From assembly GCA_013298715.1 (NCBI GenBank), contig JAAFIQ010000002.1:1-64000 (forward strand): a stretch of DNA of 64,000 nucleotides, read 5' to 3'. Source of the DNA: Bacteroidota bacterium (GTDB lineage: Bacteria > Bacteroidota > Bacteroidia > B-17B0 > Aurantibacillaceae). A model generated the notes under the pieces. It searched no databases. It was not told the DNA's origin and saw only the letters and a program-made list of their open reading frames with translations. Position numbers and translations under genes: made by a program. Of the stretch, positions 1,928 to 41,062 are shown in pieces; the stretch's first letter is position 1, and every line of letters begins with the position of its first letter.

Positions 1928-4825
1928 ATGAAATATATTTTAAAAATAATATATGTGTTTGTTTTTGCTTTTCCTTTACAAGTAATAAGTCAAATACCTT
2001 ATACTACAAATGTAAGTGGTTCTTATAATTCTACTACCGAGTTATTTACAGGCTCACAAATAAATGCTGGTACATTTAATAATACCCCATTTAATGTAAG
2101 CAATACCGCAAAAGTAGAACTAAAAGCAAGCACCGAAATAAAAATTAGTAATGAAACCAGCATTAGTAATATTACTGGTAATGGCGAATTTTGGGCGCAT
2201 ATTGACCCCGCTGGCATTGGTATAGCATCGTTTCATAACAATGGGTTTAATACCATACCAACTTACGATAGATTCGAAATTGGCGTAAAGCTACCTACAA
2301 ACATACAAAATCAAGTAAATGCTTATTTGGCAGGTGGCACTGGCTTAAACCCTTTTGATTTAGGACAAGTTAGAGTTGAAGTAGATTATAAACGTCCATC
2401 CGAAGTAGTAATTGCTTTTCCTACGCCAATTTTAGTTAGTGGTATAATCAACATGCGCCAAGGCTTTTATTACGAACCCTACACCAACAATGGTAATGTT
2501 TGGGTAAAACAAAGTACCGACTATAGCATGCGCGTGCGCTATGCACCACCAGTAGCAGGCACTTATACTGCTACCGTAAAATTATTTATTTATAATACAC
2601 TTACGGCGCAATCTGATTTTAAATTTAATGTTTATAATTCTGGTAACCCAGGTCATTTAATTGTACGTAGCAGTACCTTGCGTTTAACTCACGAGCGTGG
2701 CGGCGATTTTTTTGGTATAGGGCAAAATGCAATCATTGCTCCAAATAATGTAAACGATACAATTACTTTTGCAGGACCACCATACAATGGCGTTAATCCA
2801 AACTTTCCTTACTCTAATGGTTATCCTGCAAGAATGTCGAATCCGAGCAAACACCAAGAGTTAAGAGACAGATTAAATGATTTAGCCGACAAAGGCGGTA
2901 ATTTTGTTCGTGCGCGTATGGATTCTTGGTCTTTCCCCATGCAAACCTATGATAAATCGCCAAACCCAATACCAGTAGTACAAACCCTTGATAATTATAA
3001 CCACAACCAAATGTTTATGCAAGAGTTAGATAAAACAATTACGGTTTGCGAAACTAGAGGCATAAAATGTGTACAAAATATTTTACATGATATTGAATAT
3101 TATACCGGTTTAAACTCAGGTGAAGAACTTTGGGCACAAAACCCCTACAATACTATTTGTGGGCAAGGCTTGCCGGGTATAAAAAACTTTTTTACACAAC
3201 CGTTGGCCAGAGCCAAGTACAAAAACATGCTACATTACATACATGCGCGCTGGGGCTACAGCACCGCCATAGGTATATGGAGCATGATTAACGAAATAGA
3301 ACCTTTGGGAAGAGGTGCTGGCGATGCCTTTAAACCCTATATGCAAGACCCTGTTTTTAGACAACAAGTAAACGATTGGGTACGCGAAATGAAATGGGAG
3401 TTAGAGCAATTATACCCTTGGCACCCTACCACCTGCGGGGCACAAGGATACAATGGTGATTTTATAATGAAAGACCACCAGCCGAATTGTTTAAACGTGT
3501 ACTCACAAAATCCATACAACTCCAACGTAGATGTGAATGGAAAAGGCTCTAATAACGGTGAGTTGGAAAAAAAGGAGCTTCATTTAAAGTACTTTAATAG
3601 CGCTATGCCGTTTTTTGTGGGGGAAACTGGATTAACTGGGAAGAATGAATCAGCTATAGAAATTGAAAAAATTAACGACAGAACCTTTCACAATACCTTA
3701 TGGGCTACTGCTATGATGGGCGGCATAAGCACAGCCCTTAGTTTTTGGAACCAGCAGCAAGACGATGGGGTGGACCACCGTGCTAATTTTAAAGCCTTGC
3801 GCCACTTTTTTGATAACCAGGTGCCATTGTATAAAAAGTTAACACCACAATTTGAGGAAGGCAAAGGGGAATCACTTCTTATTAATTCGAAAATTTTTAA
3901 TTACAGCATGGTGTCTGATGATAAAGAAACGGCCATTGGTTGGGCCAGGAATGGCTCGGCTGATTGGACAATAGACTATAATGGTTTCCCTGATGCCCTA
4001 TCGTATTTAAAAGAAGACGGTAGGTTTATATACAACCCCGATTTTAAAAGCAACATTCCAGCTGGCATGAGCATGGACATTAATAAAATAGAAGCTTACG
4101 ATTGTTTGTCAGCAGATGACCATCCATCTATGACCATTACAAATTTATTAAAGAAGAAACGCTACAGGGTGCAAATTTTCTCTTGTTATGGTAATACTTC
4201 TGACGAGTTAGAAAACTTTCACGAAAATACAGGCGACGATAAGAAATTAGAATTTAAACGTTTTATGCCCGCCTACAGGGTTAATCCTTTTGCACCAGAT
4301 TACGCCTTTAAAGCAACCTACGATCCTTTATTTGGCAATAATAGGGTGTCAGCCACCGATAGCCTAAGTACTAATGATAGCTTGTGTTTACATACAGACG
4401 AATGGATAACCAAAGAACAGCATTTTGCCAAACACAATTGGTACATAAATAATAGCTATATTGGTAAAGATAGCACTGTGTGTACAGGGAATTTAGCACC
4501 GGGTGTAAATACCATAAAATTGGTGGTGTATGATAGCCTAGGCATAAGCAAACAAAGCATTGTAAAAACACTGTTTGTAAAAAATAATGCCAACGATGTT
4601 AAAATTTCTGTATACCCTAACCCAACAAATGATTACCTTTATGTAAACATGGTAGGTGGTTTAAGTGCTGCTACTTACAAAATTACCAACGTATTGGGGC
4701 AAGTGCTACAAGTACCCTATAGTAATAATACTTTGAATGTAGTATCGTTGCCAAATGGCGCTTATGTTTTAACCATAAAAACAAACCAAAATGAAAAACA
4801 AATTAAGTTTATTGTTGCTCATTAG
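1928..4825 (+). CDS. Secreted glycoside-hydrolase-like (clan GH-A type TIM barrel) protein with T9SS type A sorting domain
   Basis: Signal peptide; 'GIWSMINEIEP' (NE acid/base-like) and 'MPFFVGETGLTG' (E nucleophile-like); C-terminus 'ISVYPNPTNDYLYVN...GAYVLTIKTNQNEKQIKFIVAH'. Confidence 0.75.
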   Translation: MKYILKIIYVFVFAFPLQVISQIPYTTNVSGSYNSTTELFTGSQINAGTFNNTPFNVSNTAKVELKASTEIKISNETSISNITGNGEFWAHIDPAGIGIASFHNNGFNTIPTYDRFEIGVKLPTNIQNQVNAYLAGGTGLNPFDLGQVRVEVDYKRPSEVVIAFPTPILVSGIINMRQGFYYEPYTNNGNVWVKQSTDYSMRVRYAPPVAGTYTATVKLFIYNTLTAQSDFKFNVYNSGNPGHLIVRSSTLRLTHERGGDFFGIGQNAIIAPNNVNDTITFAGPPYNGVNPNFPYSNGYPARMSNPSKHQELRDRLNDLADKGGNFVRARMDSWSFPMQTYDKSPNPIPVVQTLDNYNHNQMFMQELDKTITVCETRGIKCVQNILHDIEYYTGLNSGEELWAQNPYNTICGQGLPGIKNFFTQPLARAKYKNMLHYIHARWGYSTAIGIWSMINEIEPLGRGAGDAFKPYMQDPVFRQQVNDWVREMKWELEQLYPWHPTTCGAQGYNGDFIMKDHQPNCLNVYSQNPYNSNVDVNGKGSNNGELEKKELHLKYFNSAMPFFVGETGLTGKNESAIEIEKINDRTFHNTLWATAMMGGISTALSFWNQQQDDGVDHRANFKALRHFFDNQVPLYKKLTPQFEEGKGESLLINSKIFNYSMVSDDKETAIGWARNGSADWTIDYNGFPDALSYLKEDGRFIYNPDFKSNIPAGMSMDINKIEAYDCLSADDHPSMTITNLLKKKRYRVQIFSCYGNTSDELENFHENTGDDKKLEFKRFMPAYRVNPFAPDYAFKATYDPLFGNNRVSATDSLSTNDSLCLHTDEWITKEQHFAKHNWYINNSYIGKDSTVCTGNLAPGVNTIKLVVYDSLGISKQSIVKTLFVKNNANDVKISVYPNPTNDYLYVNMVGGLSAATYKITNVLGQVLQVPYSNNTLNVVSLPNGAYVLTIKTNQNEKQIKFIVAH

Positions 4826-5600
4826 TGCTTTTAGCTTAGGCTTAAAGGCAAATGATAGTATTCGGAAAAGAACGGTTGATTTTTCGCTTATTAGCAATAC
4901 GTATTTTTTAAACAATAATTCTACTAACGGTAATATTTTAAGTAGCCCAACCACAGTGCTTGATTTTGAGGCAAAATTAATGTTTGGAAAACGTAAATGG
5001 AAGCACGTAGTATTTTTTAGCAGAGATACGTACAGGTACAAACTAATTTATGGCTTTGATTATGTGGTTGGGACAATTTACCTTGGAACCAAGCCACAAG
5101 CAGTTTATGGTAAGTTTGTAGATGTAGATAGGATAATTACAACTAATTATTTTAACGTTGGTTACGGCTTGTCAAAAACCTATAAGGTTAACAAAATGTT
5201 TAGTCTATTATCTAACATAGAATTTTGTCTATTGGTACGCACCATAGACAATATAAAAAATATTTACTTAAACAGTTCAGAACCTATACCAAACGACGCT
5301 CTAGTCAAAGGTAGGTACATAAACCAAAATAATTTTGGCAGGGTAGCTTTAAGTTATAAACTAAATGGCATGTATCAAGTTACAACTAAAATAAGTATTT
5401 TAGCTGGGATTAATCTTACATCAAGCTTTGGCCGTTCGTTGTATGGGGGTGGTTATAGCAGTTTCGATGATCAACTTTTTTTTACAGACAAATACCAAGA
5501 CTCCAAGCAAATTCGTTACAGAGATTCACCAACCTCAACCTATCAAAAATTACGAACGTTCGCAAGTATTAACATAGGTGTAAATTTTAAGATTCAGTAG
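4791..5600 (+). CDS. Secreted, predicted outer-membrane barrel-like protein, tandem paralog copy 1
   Basis: Signal peptide MKNKLSLLLLISAFSLGLKAN; C-terminus FASINIGVNFKIQ; near-identical 5' region to copies 2 and 4; overlaps the end of the preceding CDS by 35 bp. Confidence 0.75.
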   Translation: MKNKLSLLLLISAFSLGLKANDSIRKRTVDFSLISNTYFLNNNSTNGNILSSPTTVLDFEAKLMFGKRKWKHVVFFSRDTYRYKLIYGFDYVVGTIYLGTKPQAVYGKFVDVDRIITTNYFNVGYGLSKTYKVNKMFSLLSNIEFCLLVRTIDNIKNIYLNSSEPIPNDALVKGRYINQNNFGRVALSYKLNGMYQVTTKISILAGINLTSSFGRSLYGGGYSSFDDQLFFTDKYQDSKQIRYRDSPTSTYQKLRTFASINIGVNFKIQ

Positions 5601-5653
5601 TTTTAGGGGTGGTATTTAGCGGGCTTAATAAAAATGTTCATAGTAAGTTTGAA

Positions 5654-6460
5654 ATGAAAAACAAATTAAGTTTATTGTTGCTCATTAGTGCTTTTAGCTT
5701 AGGCTTAAAGGCAAATGATAGTATAAGGAAAAGAACGGTTGATTTTTCGCTTATTAGCAATACATATTTTTTAAACAATAATTCTACTAACGGTAATATT
5801 TTAAGTAGCCCAACCACAGTGCTTGATTTTGAAGCAAAATTAATTTTTGGAAAACGTAAATGGAAGCACGTAGTATTTTTTATTAGAGATACATACAAGT
5901 ACAAACTAACTTATGGCTTTGATTATGTGGTTGGAACTGTTTACATCGGAACCAAGCCTCAAGCAGTTTACGGCAAGTTTGTAGATGTAGATAGGGTAGT
6001 AACCTCTAATTATTTTAATGTTGGTTACGGCTTGTCTAAACGTTATAAAATTAGCAATAGGTTTAGCCTATTATCTAACATAGAGTTTTGTTTACTGGTG
6101 CGTCGTATAGATAATATAAAAAATAATTATATAAACAGTGCTGAACCCATACCAAACGAAGTTATGGTAAACGGTAGTTACAAAAACCAAAACAATTTTG
6201 GCAGGGTTGCGTTGGGGTATAAACTAAATGGGGTGTACCAAGTTACAACTAAAATAAGTTTTTTAGCGGGCATTAATCTTACATCGAGCCTAGGACGAAG
6301 CTATTATGGCAGTTATGGTACTGGAGATGAGAAACTTTTTTTTGCTGATGCTTATTGGTCATCTAAAAGAATTAAGTTTAGCGACATACCAAAAACTACT
6401 TATAGAGAACAATTAACATTTGCAAGTATTAACATAGGCTTAAATTTTAAGATTCAGTAA
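5654..6460 (+). CDS. Tandem paralog copy 2, predicted secreted/outer-membrane protein
   Basis: ORF track starts at 5609, but the conserved MKNKLSLLLL start is the ATG at 5654. Confidence 0.75.
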   Translation: MKNKLSLLLLISAFSLGLKANDSIRKRTVDFSLISNTYFLNNNSTNGNILSSPTTVLDFEAKLIFGKRKWKHVVFFIRDTYKYKLTYGFDYVVGTVYIGTKPQAVYGKFVDVDRVVTSNYFNVGYGLSKRYKISNRFSLLSNIEFCLLVRRIDNIKNNYINSAEPIPNEVMVNGSYKNQNNFGRVALGYKLNGVYQVTTKISFLAGINLTSSLGRSYYGSYGTGDEKLFFADAYWSSKRIKFSDIPKTTYREQLTFASINIGLNFKIQ

Positions 6461-6514
6461 TTTTTGGAGGTGTTATTTAGCGGGCTTAATAAAAATGTTC
6501 ATAGTAAGTTTGAA

Positions 6515-7300
6515 ATGAAAAACAAATTAAGTTTATTGTTGCTCATTAGTGCTTTTAGCTTAGGCTTAAAGGCGAATGATAGTATTAGAAAAAGGACTGT
6601 AAATATAAGCCTTATAAATAATTATTTGGATCCTTTTAGGAGTAAATTTAAAGTTCAACAATTAGCAAATTTTGAACTCAAGTGTATTTTTGGAAAAGGG
6701 AGACTCAAACAGCTTGTAAGCTTGAGTGTGGATCGGTTTGAATCTCTTTACAAATATGAAATTAGTAATAATGTTTTTGTTGGCTATAAGCAACCATTGA
6801 AACATTACAAATTAGTAAATGTCGATCAAACCATAGTTTACAATTATTATAATGTAGGATATGGCGTATTAAAAGAATTTCGTTTAGGGAACAAATTTTT
6901 GCTGCTACCTAGCTCGTCTTTATTTTTCCAATTTTATAGAACTTACCGAAGCACTCATCAATTTTATGATTTTTATACTCAAATTCCTGATGAGCAGTTG
7001 ATTAAAGAAACAAAAATTAAATATCTTGAAACTGATAGAATTGGATTAAATTTATCTTTGAACGGGCAATACAAATTAAGTAAACAATTAAGTTTGTTAG
7101 GAGGTATAAGTGTATCAGTAACTAGGCAGGATTTTTTAAAACCAGATGTTGATAAATATACATTTTTCACAAAAGATTTTGCAAATTCAGTGGAGTATTA
7201 TAATATTAGTTTATACCCTGAACCACCAAATAATTCACCTAATCCATTTTGGAGGATATTCGCAAGTATTAATTTGGGTTTAAATTATACAATTAGATAA
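6515..7300 (+). CDS. Tandem paralog copy 3 (divergent after the signal peptide)
   Basis: Conserved start ATG at 6515; shares signal peptide and upstream 44-bp block with copy 2; body diverged; C-terminus FASINLGLNYTIR. Confidence 0.7.
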   Translation: MKNKLSLLLLISAFSLGLKANDSIRKRTVNISLINNYLDPFRSKFKVQQLANFELKCIFGKGRLKQLVSLSVDRFESLYKYEISNNVFVGYKQPLKHYKLVNVDQTIVYNYYNVGYGVLKEFRLGNKFLLLPSSSLFFQFYRTYRSTHQFYDFYTQIPDEQLIKETKIKYLETDRIGLNLSLNGQYKLSKQLSLLGGISVSVTRQDFLKPDVDKYTFFTKDFANSVEYYNISLYPEPPNNSPNPFWRIFASINLGLNYTIR

Positions 7301-7347
7301 AATAGAATAGAGAGGTCTTTTAAAAATTTACATTAGTTTTAATAATC

Positions 7348-8157
7348 TTGAAAAACAAATTAAGTTTATTGTTGCTCATTAGTGCTTTTAGCTTAGGTTT
7401 AAAGGCAAATGATAGTATTCGGAAAAGAACGGTTGATTTTTCGCTTATTAGCAATACGTATTTTTTAAACAATAATTCTACTAACGGTAATATTTTAAGT
7501 AGCCCAACCACAGTGCTTGATTTTGAGGCAAAATTAATGTTTGGAAAACGTAAATGGAAGCACGTAGTATTTTTTAGCAGAGATACGTACAGGTACAAAC
7601 TAACTTATGGCATTAGGTACGTTGCTGGTACAGTTTATTATGGAGGCAGACCGCATCCAATATATGGTAACTTAGTAGATGTAGACAGAGTGATAACCTC
7701 TAATTATTTTAGTATAGGCTATGGTTTATCTAAACGCTGCAATATTAGCAAAAGGTTTAGCTTATTATCTAACGTAGAATTTTGTTTACTGGTGCATAGC
7801 ATTGATAATATAAAAAATAATTACATGAATAGTACAATAACAATTCCAGAAGAGGTCTTGAGGCTGGATGTTACTTATAAAAGTAATACTAATTTTGGGA
7901 GAATAGCTTTGGGCTATAAACTAAATAGCGAGTATAAGCTTACCAATAAAATAAGTTTTTTAGCGGGGATTAATCTTACATCAAGCCTTGGTCGTAGGTT
8001 TTATGGTGATGGTTATAGTGGTGATGATAAATTTTTTTTTACAGATAACTACCTTAAATCTAAAGGAATTTACATTACAGATTCACCAAGCTCTACCTAC
8101 CAACCATTAAGATTATTTGCAAGTATTAACATAGGCGTAAATTTTAAGATTCGGTAG
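7348..8157 (+). CDS. Tandem paralog copy 4 (TTG start)
   Basis: Near-identical to copy 1 over roughly the first 260 bp, then divergent; the start codon position is TTG rather than ATG. Confidence 0.7.
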   Translation: MKNKLSLLLLISAFSLGLKANDSIRKRTVDFSLISNTYFLNNNSTNGNILSSPTTVLDFEAKLMFGKRKWKHVVFFSRDTYRYKLTYGIRYVAGTVYYGGRPHPIYGNLVDVDRVITSNYFSIGYGLSKRCNISKRFSLLSNVEFCLLVHSIDNIKNNYMNSTITIPEEVLRLDVTYKSNTNFGRIALGYKLNSEYKLTNKISFLAGINLTSSLGRRFYGDGYSGDDKFFFTDNYLKSKGIYITDSPSSTYQPLRLFASINIGVNFKIR

Positions 8158-37769: not shown

Positions 37770-38732
37770 TTAACTACTCAAATCGTGCACCACGCCCATG
37801 CTCGAAAATTTTTCGATGCGTTGGTTAATGCGTGTTTGCGGGTCTATTGTATTTAACTCTTTTAAATGCGTTAAAATAGTTTGTTTTACAGTTTCAAACA
37901 TTGCATCTTTATCACGGTGTGCACCGCCCACAGGCTCTTTTACAACACCATCAATCAAACCATTTTTGCTCATATCTTCTGCTGTAAGTTTTAAGGCAGA
38001 AGCAGCCTGTTCTTTAAAATTCCAACTGCGCCATAAAATACTGCTACAACTTTCAGGACTAATTACGCTGTACCACGTATTTTCGAGCATTAAAACTTTA
38101 TCGCCAATGCCAATACCAAGTGCACCGCCGCTTGCGCCTTCGCCAATAATTATACAAATTACAGGCACTTTAAGTTGGCACATTTCTAGTAAATTGCGGG
38201 CAATGGCCTCGCCTTGTCCACGTTCTTCGGCTTCTAAACCAGGGTAAGCGCCAGGCGTATCAATAAAAGTAACAATAGGTTTATTGAATTTCTCTGCTAA
38301 TTTCATTAGGCGAAGTGCTTTGCGGTAACCTTCGGGGTTGGCCATGCCAAAGCGGCGTATTTGGCGCATTTTGGTATTAATACCTTTTTGTTGCCCAATA
38401 AACATTACGGTTTGTCCTTCAATTTCGCCAAAACCACCCACCATGGCTTTATCATCGCCTACAGTTCTATCGCCGTGTAATTCTAAAAAAGTTTTGTTGC
38501 TTACATAGTCAATATAAGCTAAGGTATATGGGCGCTCAGGGTGGCGGCTAACTTGCACACGCTGCCAAGGTGTTAGATTAGAATAAAGATCTTTGGTTTT
38601 AGTAGCTATTTCGTTTTCAAGTTCTTTAATCTTATCCTCTAATTTAACTTTACTTTTAGAATTAACTTCTTTAAGTTTCACCAATTCTCCCTCCAAATCT
38701 TGAATTGGTTTTTCAAAGTCTAAATACGTCAT
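37770..38732 (-). CDS. accA: Acetyl-CoA carboxylase carboxyltransferase subunit alpha
   Basis: '[18 protein letters not shown]', '[19 protein letters not shown]', '[34 protein letters not shown]'. Confidence 0.95.
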
Positions 38733-39139
38733 TTTTAAGTTTTTAGTTAGGGGGCAAATATACTATTTTTTTATAATTGAATCATTTATGAACGCAAGGT
38801 ATATTTTGAGAATAGGGCTTGGGGAATTGAAGAAATTCGTTTATACTGTGGTTAATTGAAGAACAAAAAGAGACTACTTGGTTTAAATAAAAAAATTATC
38901 TGGTTTAAGTTTATAAAAAAATAAGTATTTTTATAAATAAGAAAACAAATGAAAAAACATCACTTGTTATAGAAATTAACGAGATAATGATGGGAAAATT
39001 GTATATATATTAAGTTATAAGCAAGCCTGGACTGCAACCATTGAAAGGACTGCAACATATGTGAAATTTGCTTTATATTTTGATATTTTACGATGTGTAA
39101 TTTGACTTCACTTTTTTTTATTAAAAGAAATAATAGAAC

Positions 39140-40246
39140 ATGTCAGACATAAAATTGAAATCATTCACAATTAAAGGATACAAGACAATAAAATCAATTG
39201 AAAACTTCGAGCCTCGACCAATCAATATTCTAATTGGCCCAAATGGAGCCGGGAAAAGTAATTTTATATCCTTTTTCAAATTTCTTAGTTGGATGCTTAA
39301 TTCTGACGGAAAATTACAAGAACACGTTGCGTATTTGGGTGGCGCAAATGACATTCTACATGACGGGGCGGATACAACTAAAAGCATAGATGCCGAAATT
39401 TCTTTAGAGACTATTGCTGGCGTGAACGAGTATAGGTTTAGTTTAATGTTTGCAAAACCTGACAAACTTGTTTTCAAAGAAGAAAAATATAGGTTCTCAT
39501 CAAAGAAGTTTGATGGAAGTTATCCAAGATGGAGTAGTTGTGGTGTTGGGCATGAAGAAGCAAAATTGCCTCTTGCAGCAAATCCAACATCCAACGTAAT
39601 GCTAAATTTACTGAGAAAGTTAATTGTGTATCAATTTCACAACACGAGTGATACAGGACCTATGAGGTTAAAATGGGCACAAGCCGATGGAAGATGGTTA
39701 AAACAAAACGGAGAAAATTTAGGTAGCTTCCTCTTTCGTTTACATAATGAGGAAAAGCCATACTACCTAAGAATTATCAAATACATTCGACTTGTACTTC
39801 CTTTCTTTGATGACTTTGAATTATATGAAGAATTCGGTCAAATTTTACTTCGATGGAAAGAGAAACGGACTAATAAAGTTTTCAATGCTGGTCAAGCCTC
39901 CGATGGTATGTTAAGAACAATTGCACTAATAAGCTTATTGGCGCAAAACCCCAAAGACCTGCCAACAGTTTTGTGTTTAGACGAGCCTGAACTTGGACTG
40001 CATCCAAGTGCTATAGATGCAGTTGCAGGTTTAATAAAAGCAGCTTCTTCTCATTGCCAAGTTTTTGTTGCCACTCAGTCTATAAGTCTTGTGAATAATT
40101 TCGAATTAGACGATTTAGTTGTAATTGACCGAAAAGGAAGAAGCTCAGAATATCACAGACCGGATATTGAAAACCTTCAGGCTTATTTAGAAGAGTTTTC
40201 AACTGGGCAAATTTGGGAGAAAAATGTAATTGGAGGTCGCCCATGA
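39140..40246 (+). CDS. AAA-family ATPase (OLD/RecF-like), upstream partner of a DUF4276 protein
   Basis: Walker A 'IGPNGAGKSNFISF', Walker B/D-loop 'VLCLDEPELGLHPSAIDAV', 'VFVATQSISLVNNF'. Confidence 0.9.
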   Translation: MSDIKLKSFTIKGYKTIKSIENFEPRPINILIGPNGAGKSNFISFFKFLSWMLNSDGKLQEHVAYLGGANDILHDGADTTKSIDAEISLETIAGVNEYRFSLMFAKPDKLVFKEEKYRFSSKKFDGSYPRWSSCGVGHEEAKLPLAANPTSNVMLNLLRKLIVYQFHNTSDTGPMRLKWAQADGRWLKQNGENLGSFLFRLHNEEKPYYLRIIKYIRLVLPFFDDFELYEEFGQILLRWKEKRTNKVFNAGQASDGMLRTIALISLLAQNPKDLPTVLCLDEPELGLHPSAIDAVAGLIKAASSHCQVFVATQSISLVNNFELDDLVVIDRKGRSSEYHRPDIENLQAYLEEFSTGQIWEKNVIGGRP

Positions 40247-40926
40247 AAAATTTGCAAATAATAGTTGAAGGTAGTTCCGAAGAGAACTTTGTAAATGATG
40301 TAATGGTAAAACACTTTGCCTCATTAAACATTTTCATATCAGCTAGAAAGATTAGAACCGGTTGGGATAGATTAAACAACAAACCAGCAAAAGGTGGGTT
40401 ATTAAAATACTATAAGTTCAGAAATGATGTAATAAGATGGATTGAATCAGACAAGGGCAGAACAAATACTTTTTATACCAGTTTTATAGATTTATATGCT
40501 TTTCCAAAAGATGATGAAAGTCCATATACATTGAAGATACAACAGATAAAAAACCCTTATCAAAAAATTATTGCTTTGGAAGAAGCAATTGGAAAAGATA
40601 TAAATCACCACAACTTTATTCCATACGTTCAATTGCATGAATTTGAGGCTCTAATATTAGTTGACCCGAATAGACTTTTGGGAATGTACCCAGATGGACA
40701 AATAGGAATTTCAAGACTCAAAAAGGATATCGGAAATACTAATCCTGAGGAGATAAACGAATCTGATCAAACAGCACCATCGAAACGAATCATTAAATAT
40801 TTGCCTGACTATGAGGGACAGAAAGCGCAAGTTGGACCATTGGTTGCTGAAGCTATTGGAATTTCAGAGTTAAAAAATAAATGCCCACATTTTAATGACT
40901 GGTTAAACAAATTAGAAAATTTATAA
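40243..40926 (+). CDS. DUF4276 family protein (TOPRIM-like)
   Basis: ATG at 40243 overlaps the ATPase stop (ATGA) with a GGAGG SD at 40232; 'LQIIVEGSSEENFVNDVMVKHF', 'YTSFIDLYAFPKD', 'VQLHEFEALILVDPNRLLGMYP'. Confidence 0.8.
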   Translation: MKNLQIIVEGSSEENFVNDVMVKHFASLNIFISARKIRTGWDRLNNKPAKGGLLKYYKFRNDVIRWIESDKGRTNTFYTSFIDLYAFPKDDESPYTLKIQQIKNPYQKIIALEEAIGKDINHHNFIPYVQLHEFEALILVDPNRLLGMYPDGQIGISRLKKDIGNTNPEEINESDQTAPSKRIIKYLPDYEGQKAQVGPLVAEAIGISELKNKCPHFNDWLNKLENL

Positions 40927-41062
40927 ATCATTTCGAAAATAGCTTGACTATTCAAAAAAATGAACAATCAATCATGATAGGGTAACGAAGATAATAGATG
41001 AGTTCAACATAAAGTGTTAATTCGTTTGGTCGTGTACTCCTCTAAAATTTTTACTTCGAAGT

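Follow-up and report, generated by a model that had tools for sequence, protein, structure and literature searches.

A horizontally acquired HEC-01 gene pair encodes an OLD/Rad50-type ATPase and a probable TOPRIM-like nuclease in a Bacteroidota genome

Gene anatomy and setting

Two adjacent genes of a candidate defence system, hecA and hecB, are located in the window, the whole 64,000-nucleotide stretch of DNA that was analysed. The features of the locus are the following.

37770-38732, minus strand: accA, flank of hecAB on one side
39140..40246, plus strand: hecA, OLD/Rad50-like ABC ATPase, HEC-01A, 368 aa
40232..40236, plus strand: Shine-Dalgarno sequence GGAGG of hecB, within the 3' end of hecA
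40243..40926, plus strand: hecB, DUF4276 protein, HEC-01B, probable TOPRIM-like nuclease, 227 aa
41063-41821: DUF2490 gene, flank of hecAB on the other side

The open reading frames (ORFs) overlap by ATGA (40243-40246), which suggests translational coupling. An earlier reading made from the letters of this DNA (the sequence-only reading) had described these ORFs, their coordinates, the overlap and the GGAGG at 40232, and all are present in the sequence. A mechanical ORF list begins hecB with the TTG at 40213. The start was set at the ATG at 40243 (227 aa) because of the homologues and the Shine-Dalgarno sequence.

The pair is isolated, as had been described: hecA and hecB are the sole plus strand genes between the minus strand accA and the DUF2490 gene. 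The flanks are ordinary: accA is accompanied by efp and a DUF6268 gene, and the DUF2490 gene by genes for a DCC1-like oxidoreductase and for secreted repeat proteins. Among the flanking genes scanned no recognised defence gene was found beside the pair, and there are no tRNA genes in the window. Composition proved uninformative on a foreign origin, as the GC content of hecAB (0.35 vs 0.33 for the window) bears no sign of it. Elsewhere in the window, four consecutive tandem ORFs of 269-283 aa (4791-8157) are closely similar and share the same N-terminal sequence.

The HecA ATPase

By its sequence and predicted structure HecA is an OLD/Rad50-type ABC ATPase. It matches Pfam AAA_21 (6.7e-31) and carries a Walker A (GPNGAGKS), a degenerate signature (SDGMLR) and a Walker B motif (LDEPELGLHP). 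At the usual site of the ABC ATPase switch histidine HecA has ATQS, and ATQ or STQ is found in all 14 aligned sequences; we take this site to be the switch residue position. The structure model (pLDDT 90.6) matches the folds of PtuA of retrons, Rad50 and SMC heads with E values of about 1e-11 to 1e-14, in agreement with the OLD/RecF-like ATPase recognised earlier.

The HecB effector

HecB matches DUF4276 only among the Pfam families (4.6e-44), which was also the family proposed from the letters. An alignment of 20 homologues, with identity down to about 30%, has eleven residues invariant in 20/20: E9, G10, E13, G51, G52, D83, E133, E135, R182, K194 and C214. The motifs are E9-G10-x-x-E13, then G51-G52, then D83, and this order (EGxxE, GG, D) is that of VEGxTE...GG...DxD in the OLD TOPRIM domains of other Bacteroidia. 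HecB lacks the second acid of the canonical DxD and reads D83-L84-Y85, with Tyr85 in 19/20. The acidic E and D motifs quoted in the sequence-only reading are not due to chance, because E9, E13 and D83 are invariant in the 20 homologues. The invariant E9, E13, D83, E133, E135, R182 and K194 suggest a catalytic site.

The AlphaFold model of HecB is confident (pLDDT 89.7, pTM 0.86). Its strands include residues 2-8, 30-36 and 76-83; E9 follows strand 1 and D83 lies at the end of strand 76-83, the placement expected of a TOPRIM domain. When the model was compared with 350,542 PDB chains by Foldseek, the two best matches were the C-terminal (TOPRIM) regions of the Xanthomonas OLD protein (6njv and 6njx), with probabilities of 0.98 and 0.94, a borderline E value of 1.5e-3 and a TM score of about 0.35. 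A profile-profile comparison with OLD TOPRIM domains aligned the first motif alone (probability 30%). Neither the HecB sequence nor its profile found a match in a sequence search of the PDB, and the viral fold library gave no significant match.

Motifs, model and the OLD best matches thus uphold the TOPRIM-like effector of the sequence-only reading, as likely rather than proven because of the borderline E value and TM score, the profile alignment confined to the first motif, and Tyr85 in place of an acid. HecB is probably a small TOPRIM-like nuclease, judging from sequence and model. The tyrosine and the weak fold scores would also fit a HecB that is not a nuclease, in which case DUF4276, catalytically inert, would serve the ATPase as an adaptor or as a partner in sensing, but we regard this as unlikely in view of the seven residues of the putative catalytic site, which are kept in every homologue down to the lowest identities.

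Identity as HEC-01

HecA matches the PADLOC model HEC-01A (PDLC04175) at 3.5e-121, with residues 1-368 on positions 1-362 of 363, and HecB matches HEC-01B (PDLC04188) at 1.3e-66 over its full length; its gene is adjacent to and co-directional with the HEC-01A gene. On these profile matches hecAB is a new member of HEC-01, a candidate defence system already catalogued, and the architecture is not new. The candidate defence module of the sequence-only reading is supported by the HMMs, the fold comparison and the context of the relatives, with the qualification that it had been catalogued as HEC-01. HEC is given as "Hma-embedded candidate", and HEC-01 as Hma-embedded candidate 1 (PADLOC-DB; Payne et al. 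2024 preprint). Several HECs, HEC-06 included, are stated to show antiviral activity in assays in a 2026 survey citing Payne et al. 2024 (PMC12988326). Our literature search returned no informative paper on HEC-01 and none with data on HEC-01 itself, and a search on DUF4276 found no paper.

Horizontal transfer and insertion sites

The HecA ATPase is present in 1/40 genomes of the same genus and missing from the other 39, whereas accA is present in 37/40. The pair is therefore not core, and the inserted island that the sequence-only reading had surmised is borne out. In comparison with L003, a Flavobacteriales MAG, HecA is 90% and HecB 86% identical but AccA only 71%; within the same genus AccA is 77-88% identical. 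The DNA similarity to L003 delimits the transferred module.

39004..40949, plus strand: extent of the transferred module, 82% DNA similarity to L003, which stops at both ends

Similarity to four Bacteroidales loci spans about 39126-40924. It is these presence/absence and identity comparisons, not composition, that show a foreign origin, and from them hecAB is an accessory, horizontally acquired two-gene module.

Three genomes of one Bacteroidales genus (L005-L007) carry the pair between pcm and a biopterin-hydroxylase-like gene, flanked by direct repeats of 13-29 bases, which are copies of the pcm 3' end.

L005, 763-791 and 2659-2687: direct repeats flanking hecAB
L006, 5531-5549 and 7427-7445: direct repeats flanking hecAB
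L007, 6785-6797 and 8681-8693: direct repeats flanking hecAB

The empty site is found in two congeners (L162 and L163), in which about 106-127 bases separate pcm from the biopterin-hydroxylase-like gene. The repeats and empty sites indicate that hecAB alone is the unit that moves. The same pcm 3' site is occupied in L164 (1040-2122) by two other small ORFs, by eye like a split DUF1016/YhcG-type nuclease, and the site may therefore be a small hotspot. The empty sites whose comparison the sequence-only reading had proposed exist in the Bacteroidales genus but could not be shown at the window position, where accA-efp is kept in relatives and no clean joint can be defined because the DUF2490 gene adjoins accA in 0/20 stretches. 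Flanking direct repeats at the window site are limited to AT-rich matches at chance level.

Partnership and defence context of relatives

An ATPase matching the HecA profile lies beside DUF4276 in 27/30 Bacteroidia loci fetched (the window's own counted), and the other three are short or truncated loci. The distribution is sporadic, with a DUF4276 match in 33/295 Bacteroidia genomes. DUF4276 also occurs on 12 plasmid records, in most of which an adjacent AAA ATPase is annotated.

Several relatives are embedded in defence loci. In L014 (315-11403) an operon-like run comprises a DrmD-like helicase, a type III methyltransferase, hecA, hecB and a type III restriction endonuclease. A type III methyltransferase precedes the pair in L013 and a type III restriction endonuclease follows it in L015. 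An Aeromonas plasmid copy has WYL, SNF2 and methylase neighbours, an Ideonella plasmid copy has helicase, methylase and Mrr neighbours, and a viral contig from IMG/VR (L098, 4889-8046) carries a complete hecAB beside an N6/N4 DNA methylase. The scanned neighbours of the nearest relatives (L003, L004 and L006) include no defence genes. The survey for defence islands is thus positive for L013-L015 and the plasmid relatives but not for the window copy. In a proteobacterial MAG (L008, 2455-6822) a 1456-aa nSTAND1-WD40 protein is encoded immediately upstream of hecAB. The Acinetobacter sp. TR11 plasmid pTR11_2 (L134), an 11-kb mobilizable plasmid, carries hecAB with vapBC and tet(39).

The pair occurs on small Acinetobacter plasmids beside toxin-antitoxin genes, and in the window and L005-L007 it is inserted on its own, with no defence genes next to it. 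This could suggest a selfish addiction module resembling toxin-antitoxin systems, in which HecA would silence a toxic HecB, post-segregational killing would maintain the pair, and any phage defence would be no more than a side effect. The repeated embedding of relatives in type III restriction loci and in helicase/methylase/Mrr clusters argues against this, which we think improbable; identity with a classical toxin-antitoxin system is rejected, since the gene order and large ATPase do not fit canonical type II pairs. An accessory role against plasmids or in general DNA repair instead of phage defence, with a RecF/Rad50-like ATPase and a nuclease for processing, is suggested by the likeness of HecA to Rad50/SMC heads and by the pairing of TOPRIM with SMC-like ATPases in anti-plasmid Wadjet (PMC10568477). 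We hold it very improbable given the sporadic distribution, the presence of the pair on plasmids and a viral contig, and the embedding in restriction loci.

Proposed mechanism

We consider it likely that hecAB is a horizontally acquired HEC-01 module in which the HecA ATPase acts as a sensor controlling the HecB TOPRIM nuclease effector against phage. Its mode of action probably resembles that of PARIS and OLD. In PARIS, AriA holds AriB until it senses phage proteins; the released AriB then cleaves tRNA by a two-metal TOPRIM site (PMC12409363). The analogy with AriA/AriB makes HecA the most likely sensor and HecB the most likely nuclease effector. HecA, most likely as an ATP-bound oligomer, would sense a phage product or a phage-induced DNA state, and would keep HecB in check before the trigger. 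Once triggered, HecB would act as a two-metal TOPRIM nuclease, with metal ligands around E9/E13 and D83 and possibly E133/E135, cleaving nucleic acid, either DNA or tRNA, and stopping phage growth, probably at a cost to the cell as with AriA/AriB. Sensing, complex formation, release, cleavage and the anti-phage effect are all inferred.

A more specific proposal is offered tentatively: DUF4276 may form a TOPRIM branch of its own, with Tyr in place of the second DxD acid and a conserved HEFE element that possibly completes the metal site. Joined to an OLD-like ATPase whose switch His became Gln, it would form a sensor-effector system that evolved separately, has a trigger and a target of its own, and moves as a minimal insertion of two genes.

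Although a defence database lists HEC-01, our search of the open literature found no mechanism for this system; the HecA-HecB sensor-effector reading supplies a testable one. It comes with named putative active-site residues and a fold assignment that would tie DUF4276 to TOPRIM nucleases, as well as the natural empty sites, which indicate that hecA and hecB move as a unit without further genes.

Comparison with known systems

PARIS resembles hecAB in having two separate genes, for an ABC ATPase sensor and a small TOPRIM(-like) effector. In hecAB the separate adjacent genes of this layout are certain, and the TOPRIM part is likely, from motifs and a borderline fold match. The sequence-only reading had held that the effector family differs from those of OLD, Gabija and PARIS, and indeed AriB is a DUF4435 protein whereas HecB is DUF4276. 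The AriA model scores HecA far below HEC-01A, and there is no match to the AriB model. Membership of PARIS is rejected since HecB is not DUF4435 and the same genome has no DUF4435 match.

OLD and Gabija GajA share the ATPase superfamily with HecA and similar VEGxTE...D motifs with HecB, but they combine ATPase and TOPRIM in one polypeptide, whereas hecAB encodes two. Class 2 OLD (Gabija) has the GajB helicase next door, unlike hecAB. The C-terminal half of HecB bears KCPHFNDW, for which no counterpart was detected in OLD. Membership of Gabija or OLD class 1/2 is rejected because of the two ORFs and the lack of a helicase neighbour. Elsewhere in the same genome, a frame of 233 aa has an OLD-like TOPRIM match at G000:C23:182056-182184 (L148).

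The MAD3 ATPase of MADS is related to HecA (PADLOC mad3, 4.8e-30), although HecA is far below the NCBI MAD3 cut-off (84 vs 420 bits), and PtuA of Septu and retrons is its best solved fold match. Unlike these systems, hecAB is not accompanied by an HNH partner, a reverse transcriptase or MADS genes.

HEC-01 and the window pair are alike in the full-length model matches of both proteins and in adjacency. The only difference found is that the window copy is alone, whereas its distant HEC-01 relatives L013-L015 are embedded in restriction loci; embedding in or near other defence loci is how the HEC family was found and, as far as is known, is not a requirement for membership.
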